NCBI GenBank assembly: GCA_938084715.1
Contig: CALKES010000005.1
Location: forward strand, 1 to 64,000
From: Candidatus Bipolaricaulota bacterium
GTDB lineage: Bacteria > Bipolaricaulota > Bipolaricaulia > Bipolaricaulales > Bipolaricaulaceae
Direction of reading: 5' to 3'
DNA length: 64,000 nucleotides
The first letter of the stretch is position 1, and every line of letters starts with the position of its first letter. A program made the translations under genes and the position numbers. Below the pieces are notes generated by a model. It was not told the DNA's origin. It did no database searches and was given only the letters and a program-made list of their open reading frames with translations. Below, piece after piece: positions 16,031 to 20,544 of this stretch.

Positions 16031-17218
16031 CTAAGGGCGGCATGGGGGCGTGCCCGACCCGCCGCAGCACGGAGCCATATCCGTGCAGTCATCCGTGGCG
16101 CACAGGGGGTTGTAGATCACTTGGATTGCGGGCCCAACCCCGTTTGGCCCTCCGCCGCTCAGGGCTACAACGAGGTCCAGAATCCCGTCCCCATTGAAGT
16201 CCCCGGCGGCGATACTGATAGGCTGGCGACCTACGGGGATACTCCGTTCAAGCTTGAATCTTCCCGCACCCTGGTTCATGACCAGTGACACCACATCGCC
16301 GCCGTACTGGGCCACGGCAAAGTCCATCCTACCGTCGCGGTTTAGATCGACGGGGATGACGAAAACCGGCTCCTGATCTAGCTTGACACGAGACGCTACC
16401 TCGAAGCTCCAGCAACCCATATTGCGGAGGGCGATGAGCCCGCCGAACGCTGGGTCGACCACGGCCACGTCCACCCGGCCGTCGTTGTCAAAGTCTGTGA
16501 TGGCAATGCTGCGGAGTGCGACCGCAACAGGCAGCGCAACTTTGAAGACGAAGGCGCCGCCACAGGTGTTCTCGAAGAAGAGGAGACTCGTCCCGCTGGC
16601 TACCACAATGTCAAGATCGCCATCTCGATCAAAGTCTGCGGTGGCAAGGAACGTCGGTTGGCCTGCTACCGCGTGCCCTTTGAGGCTGACCGGAGAAATC
16701 TTTCCTGTTGGAAAGTGGATTGTCAGGCCTACTGGGTCAAGCACGGCTACGTCGAGTGCCCCATCGCTATTGAAGTCCCCGGCGATGGTGTGGATAGCTG
16801 TGATCAAGGGAAGCGTGGTTAGGTTGGCACTCGTATCCGTGACTTTGAACGATGTCCAGGCGGGGGTGTACTGGGTGATCGCAACGATCTTCTTCTCGTA
16901 AGGTCCGACGCCAGATCCAAAGAGTCCCCACGCGAGGGCAGTTGGGGAGTCGCCGAGGGCGAATGTCTTGGGTGTAGACCACGACACAGGGCAGGTTTTC
17001 CGGCATTCCCGGTCTGTGGGGTTGAGTCCGACAACGATCATGTTGCAGGAGTGACAGGCGACGGCGAAGTCGTCGAACCCATCCCCGTTGAAATCCCAAG
17101 CGATCACATACGCTGGCTTGACGCAGTCCCAGTTGAGATCCTGGATCATCCCCACCTGGGCAACTGCCCCGACGGCTAGCACTGCTGTTCCAATGGCGTA
17201 CCACCACAACCGTTTCAT
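16031..17218 (-). CDS. secreted FG-GAP/VCBS repeat beta-propeller protein with Cys-rich tail
   Basis: The 395-residue product has a signal peptide (MKRLWWYAIGTAVLAVGAVAQ). It then has at least six calcium-binding propeller repeats of the form DxNxDGxxD: DFNGDGFDD, DFNSDGALD, DFDRDGDLD, DFDNDGRVD, DLNRDGRMD and DFNGDGILD. A Cys (32) and a CHSC motif (55-58) sit in the first blade. The C-terminus is Cys-rich (CATDDC, PCCGG, PPC). It is a clear paralogue of the propeller encoded at 19102-20544, sharing the opening (CxxPxYxxAxDF, ACHSCN), a GCW segment and the VVYNP ending. ATG 17218 follows GGAGGTGACT. The frame is open upstream but not protein-like. Function unknown; adhesion or calcium-dependent surface binding is an inference. 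Confidence 0.8.
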   Translation of the reverse strand: MKRLWWYAIGTAVLAVGAVAQVGMIQDLNWDCVKPAYVIAWDFNGDGFDDFAVACHSCNMIVVGLNPTDRECRKTCPVSWSTPKTFALGDSPTALAWGLFGSGVGPYEKKIVAITQYTPAWTSFKVTDTSANLTTLPLITAIHTIAGDFNSDGALDVAVLDPVGLTIHFPTGKISPVSLKGHAVAGQPTFLATADFDRDGDLDIVVASGTSLLFFENTCGGAFVFKVALPVAVALRSIAITDFDNDGRVDVAVVDPAFGGLIALRNMGCWSFEVASRVKLDQEPVFVIPVDLNRDGRMDFAVAQYGGDVVSLVMNQGAGRFKLERSIPVGRQPISIAAGDFNGDGILDLVVALSGGGPNGVGPAIQVIYNPLCATDDCTDMAPCCGGSGTPPCRP

Positions 17219-17307
17219 AGTCACCTCCGTATCGCTCAGCTGTCGGCCGCGTTCCGTCCCCGGGTTACCTACCTCACCTGACGTCTTCTTTCTCTGGTCT
17301 ATGATTC

Positions 17308-17327
17308 CCTCCTTATGCCTCCTTATG
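17308..17327 (-). repeat. tandem 10-bp repeat duplicating a ribosome-site sequence
   Basis: On the minus strand the decamer CATAAGGAGG occurs twice in perfect tandem, between the stop of the Cys-rich gene (17334) and the propeller gene start (17218). Each copy contains AAGGAGG but no start codon follows at usual spacing. Confidence 0.5.
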
Positions 17328-17333
17328 TCATGG

Positions 17334-17915
17334 CTAACGCATGATGAGCCAATGCAAGAGCAACACAGCTGTTGCTCCAGTAACGAGACCAAGTAGAAAT
17401 TTTGTCCAACAGCTTGGGCAAGGTCCGCAACCGCGACAGTCATAGCAAATGGAGGTAATTGTCAACTGGTCGCAGTACCTATCGAGTTCAAGGCGGAGGA
17501 TGCCCGCCGAGGGAAGATCCGTCAGCCGGACCCACCACGATCCCGTTCTCGGAGGGGCTATCGAACGCACAACAGACCCGTCAACCGAGAAGGTGATCTT
17601 GCCGGTGGTTGAGGGGCTTTCGAACAGGAAAATGAGGGATCGGCCCTGGATCAACTTGAGGCTGAGTTCAAGAGAACTGGGAGGTGCGGTCTGTGCCGGG
17701 AACAGGGTGAGACCGGATCCTGACAGCACGGCAAGCCCAGTGGTACACCCCGCGTTCCAGTCCAGCCAACACCACCCATCGAGCTTAGGCGTCCGTGTCC
17801 CTACGGTCAGGGTGGTTGCGTAACCGAGGCTTGTGCCCCAGGAGAAGATGACCGCGAGCGTAGCCAAGAGGATGCGGCCTCGATCCAGTCGCGTTTGGGG
17901 GAATTGGGAGTTCAC
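17334..17915 (-). CDS. secreted Cys-rich protein with C-terminal membrane segment
   Basis: This 193-residue protein has an N-terminal signal (RGRILLATLAVIFSWGTSLGYA), a beta-rich middle (LTVGTRTPKLDGWCWLDW, LELSLKLIQGRSLIFLF), then a dense cysteine block CYDCRGCGPCPSC. It ends in one hydrophobic helix (LLGLVTGATAVLLLHWL) and a short basic end (IMR). This tail has the layout of a C-terminal sorting or anchoring signal: motif, helix, basic residue. I do not recognise the specific class. The ATG overlaps the stop of the upstream propeller frame by 4 bp, so translation is coupled. It is part of the 20544-to-16031 operon. Confidence 0.7.
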   Translation of the reverse strand: MNSQFPQTRLDRGRILLATLAVIFSWGTSLGYATTLTVGTRTPKLDGWCWLDWNAGCTTGLAVLSGSGLTLFPAQTAPPSSLELSLKLIQGRSLIFLFESPSTTGKITFSVDGSVVRSIAPPRTGSWWVRLTDLPSAGILRLELDRYCDQLTITSICYDCRGCGPCPSCWTKFLLGLVTGATAVLLLHWLIMR

Positions 17916-19084
17916 GGTCTCCTCCAGCGGACTAGATGCAAGATTCCGTTCTGGTCAAGTGCCAGGAGCTCGACGTGGCCATCGCCGTCCACGTCTGCTG
18001 CTGCGAGTCTAACTAGAGTAAGAGGCTCCGAGCTGCGAGCGATCTCAGCCTGGTAGCCGCCGGCGTCCGTGAGAAAGATCTCACCGGTATTGTGACTGTA
18101 GTACACAGTCTCAGTCACCCCATCGCCGGTTAGGTCGGTGCAGAGGAAGGGCTGGGAGGGAACCGGCCCCAAGGCCCAGAGATTGGGGGTAGTTTTCCAC
18201 TCGATGACCTGTCCCGCCGCACTGAAGCTCCAGACTAGAGGTTGTTGGCGAACTGCCCAGACCAGTTCAAGGCCTGGATGCTCGTTGAGTTGGTCAGTCC
18301 AGACGTCGTCCGCACCAGCGGGGACGCCGATCGCAACGGGGGAAACAAAGGCAAACGGGCCTGAGGATACGTACAGAAGAGCCCGCCGAGCGGTCCAGCT
18401 AACGGCAACGATATCCGGTAGGCTACACCCGGCGAAGTTCCCCACTAGTACCCTGTCCGGAGTGAACGCGAGGTCAAGTTTACCAAGCTGAGTAAACCGT
18501 CCATCTCCAGAGCCCTTGAAGAGTCTGAGGTGCCTCTCTCCGCGGGCGATGCCCACCAGGTCTGCGATTCCATCGCTGTCAAGATCCCCGGCAGCAATGT
18601 CAACAAGACCTCGGCCGCTGTCGAGGTCAACGGCTTGCCAGGATGCTTCAGGGGCACTAAGACGAGGCTCCGGGTTAGGAAGGGGCTTCGCTGCGGGCGC
18701 CGGGACCTCTTGGCTGGCTAGGCTGTGTGTCACGGGCGCCTGTGCCACCTCGCCAACTTGGGGCGCAGCACTTGTCGGGAGCTGGCCAGAAGCGACCGAG
18801 GCAGCGGGTCCAATGTTCACGGTGATGGGGACGACGGGGACGGGTGTTCCTCGAACGGCCACCTGATAGAGCCCCAGGCTGATCTCCCCAGCGCCTGTCT
18901 CGAGGCTAGGGGTGACCGTGTAGTGACCCGGTGTGCCGAAGATTACCGTCACCGCTGGTCCCCGCAGGGAGAAGCTGGAGGGCCCGTCAAAGCGCCAAAG
19001 GACCGGAAGCTCGGCCGGCTCTGCGCCGATGCGCACACCGAAATGCGCTGGCTCGCCAACTTCTGCCTCGCTGGGGACCAACAC
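17912..19084 (-). CDS. PKD-like plus FG-GAP propeller module, probably the -1 frame extension of the upstream propeller gene
   Basis: This frame encodes a PKD/Ig-like domain (EVGEPAHFGVRIG, then FGTPGHYTVTP), a Pro/Ala linker, and propeller repeats (DLDSDGIADLVGIA, DLTGDGVTETVYY, DVDGDGHVELLALD). It has no signal peptide and no ribosome site. The only candidate start, GTG 19084, falls inside the first strand of the domain. The open frame and good protein sequence (RVELGPTDVLVPSEAEVG) continue upstream to the slippery site at 19108-19114. The likeliest product is therefore a fusion: residues 1-479 of the upstream gene joined to 398 residues from here. Its stop overlaps the next gene's ATG by 4 bp. 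If translated separately it would be a cytoplasmic 390-residue protein, which makes little sense. Confidence 0.7.
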   Translation of the reverse strand: MLVPSEAEVGEPAHFGVRIGAEPAELPVLWRFDGPSSFSLRGPAVTVIFGTPGHYTVTPSLETGAGEISLGLYQVAVRGTPVPVVPITVNIGPAASVASGQLPTSAAPQVGEVAQAPVTHSLASQEVPAPAAKPLPNPEPRLSAPEASWQAVDLDSGRGLVDIAAGDLDSDGIADLVGIARGERHLRLFKGSGDGRFTQLGKLDLAFTPDRVLVGNFAGCSLPDIVAVSWTARRALLYVSSGPFAFVSPVAIGVPAGADDVWTDQLNEHPGLELVWAVRQQPLVWSFSAAGQVIEWKTTPNLWALGPVPSQPFLCTDLTGDGVTETVYYSHNTGEIFLTDAGGYQAEIARSSEPLTLVRLAAADVDGDGHVELLALDQNGILHLVRWRRP

Positions 19085-19114
19085 GTCGGTCGGCCCCAGC
19101 TCTACCCTTTTGGG
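19071..19114 (-). promoter_or_regulatory. putative -1 programmed ribosomal frameshift signal
   Basis: On the minus strand, in the reading frame of the upstream gene, the heptamer C CCA AAA (19114-19108) matches the X XXY YYZ rule. Eight bases later, with the zero-frame TAG inside the spacer, a hairpin begins: CTGGGG+CCGAC pairing with GTTGG+CCCCAG (19099-19089 with 19082-19071). It has a 6-base loop and a one-base bulge. A -1 slip leads straight into the downstream PKD/propeller frame. An assembly indel in the C5A4 run is the alternative. Confidence 0.6.
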
Positions 19115-20544
19115 GGTTCACCGGCCTGAGGTTCACCACACTCCCCCGGCGTTCCGCCCGGACAACAGGGCGCCGCCCGCGTCTGTCCCGGCTGACAACC
19201 GTTGCAGAGCACACAACAGATGGGGTTATAGACAACGCTGGCCGGCACCGGTACTCCCTGGCCGGGGAAACCATTGTGGATGACGGCTAGGTCGGGAACA
19301 CCGTTGTTATCGAAATCTCCGCTTGCGAGACCGATCGGACGCGACCCTGCAGCAAACTGGAACGTGCGACACAGGTTGAAGGTCATGATGTCTGCGAAGA
19401 TCGTGCAAGCAGGGCAGTTGGCTACCTGAGTTCCCGTGATCGGCCCAACGGAAGTGATCGCCCCACTGTAGATGCTGACGCGGTCAAGGTCCTTCTGGGC
19501 GACCGCGATGTCTAGGATTCCATCGCGGTTGGCATCGAAGACGTGAACGAAGTAGGCCTTCTCTGATTTGATGCGAACCACTTTGAAAGTCCAACACCCG
19601 GTGTTCCAGAGCACGCTCACCGCGCCTAGGTCTGGATCCGTCGCAACAAGATCAGGGTCTCCGTCGCGATCGAAATCGGCCACTGCTAGAGAGGTAACGG
19701 TCTGGCCCACAAGGACAGAAGGCAATCCGGTGTTGAACTCTCCGGCCCCGTTTCCGCAGAGGAACTTGACGTTTCCCCCAGTTGCAACGGCGATGTCCAT
19801 GTTTCCGTCGCGATCAAAGTCCGCCGCTGCCAAGAAGCGAGCCCCTGGCACGGGGAGGAAGACCGGCTGCCCCATGGCCGCCGGGGCTACGGGCGCCTGG
19901 GCTGACAAGGCGGAGTACAGAGGTGGGAGGGCGCCTGCGGGAGATAGGTAGACGAAGACCCCCCCGCCGCTGGTGAGAGGGTCGGCAATAGCGATGTCCG
20001 GGCGGCCGTCCTTGTTGAAATCCGCGAGAACCACGTGGGCTGGGTAGACTGGCGGGGGGTTGCCCGGCAGTTGGAAAAGGACGGCTGCGCCCCCGGAGAT
20101 GCTCCAGGAAACCCAGGGCCCGGTTGGTGGGGTGCCGCTCAGGGGGGTAATGCGGACGATACCAGGCGTGTATTGGGTTACGACCACGAGGTGGGGAAAG
20201 ATGTCGTGAAAGACGAGTGGGCGTGATGGGGGCACAGCATCGAGAAACCAGCCCGTGGCCAGGGCCAGTGGGGCATCTCCCTGCCCTGCGTAGAGGAGAG
20301 GCCAGGCCAGTCCATTGGCGAAGGCGGCGCACTCCTTTCCGCTCCTGGCAAGGTTCGGCACCACCAAGACCTGGTTGCAGGAGTGGCAAGCGATGGCGAG
20401 GTCCACCCACCCATCCCGGTCGAAGTCCTCGGCTACGATGTAGACTGGCCGAATGCAGTTGAGTTGGAGGTTTTGAACCTGACTCAGCGCGCTCGCCCAG
20501 AGAAGTGTCGCCAGACTTCCCAGCGCTACTGTTCTCGCTCTCAT
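19102..20544 (-). CDS. secreted FG-GAP/VCBS propeller protein with Cys-rich tail; first frame of a probable frameshift fusion
   Basis: The 480-residue zero-frame product has a signal peptide (residues 1-22) and six DxNxDGxxD calcium repeats (DFDRDGWVD, DFNKDGRPD, DFDRDGNMD, DFDRDGDPD, DANRDGILD, DFDNNGVPD). It has Cys 30 and CHSC (53-56) in blade one. The C-terminal Cys cluster is CCVLCNGC, then PCCPGG and GEC, and the end is Pro-rich (GEPPKG). It is paralogous to the gene at 16031-17218. ATG 20544 follows AAGGAGGGAGG. It is the first gene of a leftward four-frame operon with a promoter at 20586-20614. A -1 frameshift near its stop would extend it by 398 residues with a PKD-like domain and a second propeller. 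Confidence 0.82.
   Translation of the reverse strand: MRARTVALGSLATLLWASALSQVQNLQLNCIRPVYIVAEDFDRDGWVDLAIACHSCNQVLVVPNLARSGKECAAFANGLAWPLLYAGQGDAPLALATGWFLDAVPPSRPLVFHDIFPHLVVVTQYTPGIVRITPLSGTPPTGPWVSWSISGGAAVLFQLPGNPPPVYPAHVVLADFNKDGRPDIAIADPLTSGGGVFVYLSPAGALPPLYSALSAQAPVAPAAMGQPVFLPVPGARFLAAADFDRDGNMDIAVATGGNVKFLCGNGAGEFNTGLPSVLVGQTVTSLAVADFDRDGDPDLVATDPDLGAVSVLWNTGCWTFKVVRIKSEKAYFVHVFDANRDGILDIAVAQKDLDRVSIYSGAITSVGPITGTQVANCPACTIFADIMTFNLCRTFQFAAGSRPIGLASGDFDNNGVPDLAVIHNGFPGQGVPVPASVVYNPICCVLCNGCQPGQTRAAPCCPGGTPGECGEPQAGEPPKG

Follow-up and report, generated by a model that had tools for sequence, protein, structure and literature searches.

The closest described counterparts of the locus analysed here are mobile elements and, among non-mobile bacterial genes, the few cases in which −1 frameshifting is well supported. 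In the orfA-orfB arrangement of the IS1 and IS3 families, an X_XXY_YYZ heptamer is followed by a short spacer and a downstream hairpin, the 0-frame stop lies nearby, and the shift yields a longer −1 fusion; our locus has the same sequence elements, and a longer −1 fusion is predicted from it. Escherichia coli dnaX likewise combines a heptamer with a downstream hairpin, and is a cellular gene that gives two proteins from one start. The Mg-chelatase gene chlD, from the GeneTack set, is also a cellular gene with a longer −1 product and is a tested non-mobile case (PMC3711429). The slippery heptamers themselves have been assayed in E. coli: each of C_CCA_AAA and A_AAA_AAA gave more than 0.10% shifting without a stimulator, motifs above 0.10% served in a search for new frameshift genes, and when a strong stimulator was present the top motif, C_CCA_AAG, reached 54% (PMC4066793).

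The window, that is, the whole 64,000-nucleotide stretch of DNA that was analysed, comes from a Candidatus Bipolaricaulota bacterium (GCA_938084715.1, contig CALKES010000005.1, positions 1-64,000 of the forward strand). On its minus strand, the gene for an exported propeller protein (gene 1) very probably ends in a classical bacterial signal for −1 programmed ribosomal frameshifting. Ribosomes on this gene would arrive at C_CCA_AAA, and the majority would stay in the 0 frame, reading GGG and then TAG to complete a 480-aa protein. The GC-rich hairpin 7 nt downstream would hold some ribosomes at the slip site, where both tRNAs could re-pair one base back (on CCC AAA); the slipped ribosomes would then read a PKD-like domain and a second propeller in the −1 frame, giving an 877-aa protein. 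Slippage is predicted from sequence, in its occurrence as in its rate, and the comparative support comes from four signal-bearing sequences (n=4).

The operon and its junction

The operon is read in the order gene 1, gene 2 (in the −1 frame), gene 3 and gene 4 (Table 1). Gene 1 has a hydrophobic N-terminus and Pfam matches to FG-GAP_3 (4.9e-29) and FG-GAP (6e-20). In gene 2, the −1 frame opens just two codons upstream of the slip and runs for 398 open codons after it to a stop at 17912, so that the predicted long product has 479+398 = 877 aa; both lengths had been proposed in an earlier note on this DNA and follow from the reading frames. The same note had described the extension as a PKD-like domain and a second propeller. 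The propeller is borne out, as the FG-GAP_3 score of 51 bits in gene 2 (101 bits in gene 1) exceeds the Pfam cut-off of 26.9, but the PKD match is sub-threshold. As the note had also stated, the gene 2 product has no signal peptide: no hydrophobic N-terminal segment was found in it. The label of calcium propeller in the note draws solely on the FG-GAP motif, from which calcium binding may be proposed. FG-GAP repeats relate these genes to the integrin-alpha-like propellers, and the AlphaFold model of gene 1, made with a thin alignment (pLDDT 68, pTM 0.73) and of low to moderate confidence, resembles CRTAC1 and integrin headpieces at 10-18% identity, a likeness that carries no claim of integrin function. 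The −1 product modelled alone reached a pLDDT of 37.

Table 1. Features of the propeller operon and of the junction between genes 1 and 2 (window coordinates)
Feature	Position	Strand	Description
Gene 1	19102..20544	−	480-aa FG-GAP propeller with signal peptide; short product, 0 frame
Gene 2 / −1 frame extension	17912..19111	−	PKD-like domain (sub-threshold match) and FG-GAP repeats; fused in frame in G028
Gene 3	17334..17915	−	193 aa; N-terminal signal, C-terminal transmembrane segment; GTG start
Gene 4	16031..17218	−	395-aa paralogous propeller
Slippery heptamer C_CCA_AAA	19108..19114	−	X_XXY_YYZ, in 0 frame
0-frame TAG stop	19102..19104	−	Inside spacer, one sense codon (GGG) after heptamer
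Spacer GGGTAGA	19101..19107	−	7 nt, between heptamer and hairpin
Downstream hairpin	19070..19100	−	12 bp with one bulged T; −20.7 kcal/mol alone

The paralogous propeller of gene 4 ends where the 0 frame of gene 1 ends, without an extension. The two genes have similar Cys-rich tails (YNPxC...CC; 19102-19200 in gene 1, 16031-16110 in gene 4), and the 0-frame end of gene 1 thus looks like the ancestral C-terminus. No Pfam match was found for gene 3, whose signal-like N-terminus and C-terminal membrane segment are retained wherever the operon occurs.

The minus-strand sequence of gene 1 ends in ...GAA CCC CCA AAA GGG TAG. The heptamer near the stop, and the position of the stop codon within the spacer, are as the earlier note had them. 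Other particulars needed correction: the spacer is 7 nt and not eight bases, the GC-rich hairpin has 12 bp with a bulge where 11 bp had been counted, and the span given as 19071-19114 is right at 19114 but falls one base short of the end of the hairpin at 19070. The usual distance from a slippery sequence to the start of its downstream stimulator is 5-8 nt, and the hairpin (GCTGGGG-CCGAC/GTTGG-T-CCCCAGC), at 7 nt, lies inside that range. It is the most stable 34-nt segment among the 2599 in the 2.6-kb region; no Rfam match was found at the junction. A role for the hairpin as a terminator was rejected, as there is no T run and a terminator scan has no entry there. Readthrough of the stop was rejected too, since the 0 frame after TAG is unlike the −1-frame proteins of all relatives.

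Recurrence of the signal in other genera

One hundred genomes of the phylum were compared, including 40 of the family. The operon was found in five of the 40 family genomes (the window's genome, G019, G020, G027 and G028), which belong to five different genera, so that homologues of gene 1 are present in four genera besides the window's, and in none of the remaining genomes of the 100. The distribution of the operon (16031-20544) is patchy, and none of the 11 further genomes of the genus to which the window belongs has it, which suggests transfer or repeated loss. A search of the genome contigs with gene 2 gave no matches, one with the gene 1 alignment gave distant FG-GAP proteins only, and gene 1 had no match in phage records.

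The earlier note had looked to homologues for conservation of the heptamer and stem, and an alignment provides it: gene 2 lies in the −1 frame of gene 1 in the window, G019, G020 and G027, and in these three other genera the homologous site again carries the heptamer, the spacer, the stop and the hairpin. The junctions read GGGGCCCCAAAAGGGTAGAGCTGGGG in G019, GACGCAAAAAAAGGATAGAGCTGGGG in G020 and GTGGACCCAAAAGGATAAAGCTGGGG in G027, with a loop and then CCCAGCGA after each; their common form is CCC or AAA, then AAAAGGRTARAGCTGGGG, a loop and CCCAGC. Each of the four signal-bearing genomes has a single match to AAAAGGRTARAGCTGGGG-N(6-34)-CCCAGC, against 0/96 others of the phylum, a reversed-pattern control gave 0 matches in the same genomes, and the signal pattern was not found in IMG/VR contigs. 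Just upstream of the signal, where an optional SD-like stimulator would lie, G019 has AGGAGGGG and the others are purine-rich, but this stretch is not conserved. An ATG in the −1 frame upstream of the slip is peculiar to G027 (locus L043); it lies nine codons before the slip site (~27 bases upstream of the slip AAA) and has no evident SD.

These comparisons bear on two alternatives. First, the two frames could be an artefact of sequencing or assembly, or the mark of a pseudogene left by a recent frameshift mutation; a C5A4 run at the gene 1/gene 2 junction of a draft assembly would fit an error. The same frame relation and RNA signal are present in four separate assemblies from four genera, which rules out a sequencing error, and gene 2 is open and conserved over ~400 codons in each of the four, against a pseudogene (its identity between the window and relatives is 29-40%). 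We regard this explanation as having a negligible chance of being right. Second, the RNA polymerase might slip on the A run, giving mRNAs with an altered number of bases. The heptamer is C_CCA_AAA in the window, G019 and G027 and A_AAA_AAA in G020, and the seven A's of G020 would suit such slippage; the other three have four A's only, after CCC, whereas slippage-prone runs are well longer than four A's, and polymerase slippage would not call for a hairpin conserved at the distance that suits ribosomes. Transcriptional slippage is accordingly very improbable. For a ribosomal frameshift, the change from CCC to AAA in G020 preserves X_XXY_YYZ slipperiness, and in every one of the four sequences AAAA is preceded by three identical bases (CCC in three, AAA in one).

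Constraint on codons and RNA

Synonymous variation is suppressed at the signal, judging from the aligned codons. Where a residue is identical in all four sequences, the codon is identical too at 6/7 positions in the signal against 2/34 in the rest of gene 2 (Fisher p=4e-5), and at 11/109 in gene 1; the chance of six codon matches is ~1e-10 when calculated from local codon usage with the lineages treated as independent. From heptamer to stem, the only variable bases are those of GGG/GGA and TAG/TAA (the 0-frame stop is TAG in three genomes and TAA in one). This variation is silent in the 0 frame, and its effect in the −1 frame is conservative (V/I, E/K).

The lower stem is invariant across the four genomes except for one G-U pair, and the upper stem has a different sequence and pairing register in each, with pairing kept. 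When the loops were shuffled and the lower stem was kept as it is, 0/2000 shuffles were as stable in sum as the four hairpins; the window's loop taken alone was not significant (288/2000).

One long protein or a separate gene 2 product

In the fifth operon, that of G028, both parts lie in one in-frame ORF of 729 codons, and heptamer and hairpin are absent. Most of the tail cysteines described above are lost in this fusion. A tree of genes 1 and 4 groups G028 gene 1 with G019 and G027 (support 0.992) and places the window and G020 in the other clade. As G028 is thus nested among signal-bearing sequences, the simplest history is an ancestral signal and a later in-frame fusion in G028, and this points to selection for the long protein and not for a gene 2 product made on its own. 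The GeneTack survey likewise counted fusion homologues in favour of recoding (PMC3711429).

Termination and reinitiation would yield gene 2 as a protein of its own, without a signal peptide: translation would end at TAG and begin again at a CTG that lies 5 nt beyond an SD-like AAGGR. Coupled genes typically have short overlapping junctions of this kind, and AAGGG/AAGGA-TARAG-CTG is kept in 4/4. The earlier note's statement that the −1 frame has no ribosome site needs qualifying on this account, as AAGGR does precede CTG; it stands in that there is no conserved standard start with an SD. ATG, GTG or TTG occurs at no shared position, the first ones are non-homologous (in the window, a GTG at codon +9, within the hairpin loop), and CTG, rare as a start codon, is the sole common one. 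Because this CTG lies inside the hairpin stem, the stem alone explains its conservation. Reinitiation, moreover, has no need for the homogeneous triplet before AAAA that all four sequences carry, and its product would lack export whereas all neighbours carry a signal peptide; nor does it sit well with the fusion of the two parts in G028. Overall, we consider reinitiation unlikely. A −1 ribosomal frameshift, by which a short and a long protein would be made from one start as originally proposed, is supported by the conserved signal, the suppressed synonymous variation and the G028 fusion.

Possible coupling to gene 3

In 5/5 loci (the window and L041-L044), genes 2 and 3 overlap, the stop of the one with the start of the other. 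The overlap is GTGA in the window (17912-17915) and ATGA in G020, G027 and G028, and it is longer in G019 (L042). The 0-frame TAG lies ~1.2 kb before gene 3, and shifted ribosomes alone would reach the gene 2 stop, terminating on the gene 3 start. Given the stop-start overlap in all five loci, frameshifting may govern translation of the membrane protein gene 3 as well, and so help to set its level. A strong SD-like sequence precedes gene 3 in most loci and would allow its independent initiation. We tentatively raise the idea, to which we give somewhat less than an even chance, that one frameshift sets both the ratio of short to long propeller and, via the overlap, gene 3 translation, so that a surface complex would contain free propeller, double propeller and anchor in constant proportions.

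Comparison with known systems

No paper linking frameshifting with FG-GAP or beta-propeller proteins was found in open-access full text. As far as the open-access literature shows, the mechanism is classical, and the novelty lies in the gene, in its exported product and in the proposed coupling. In the lineage itself, no obvious classical slip site was found in dnaX (dnaX frames were cleanly identified only in G000 and G027), so dnaX lends no independent support to −1 shifting there. The differences from the described systems are multiple. First, unlike IS1 and IS3 elements, the propeller operon is chromosomal, encodes an exported protein and no transposase, and uses C_CCA_AAA or A_AAA_AAA. 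Second, the protein differs from that of chlD, and the propeller signal has a conserved GC-rich hairpin and a C-rich heptamer. Third, the shifted product of dnaX is the shorter one whereas that of the propeller gene would be the longer, and dnaX uses an upstream SD-like stimulator, none of which is conserved in the propeller operon. The comparative support for the propeller case is unusually clean (four genera, a change that preserves slipperiness, and a natural fusion), and its setting is an operon for exported propellers, not replication or transposition, which suggests that frameshifting can set the ratios of the parts of a surface complex.
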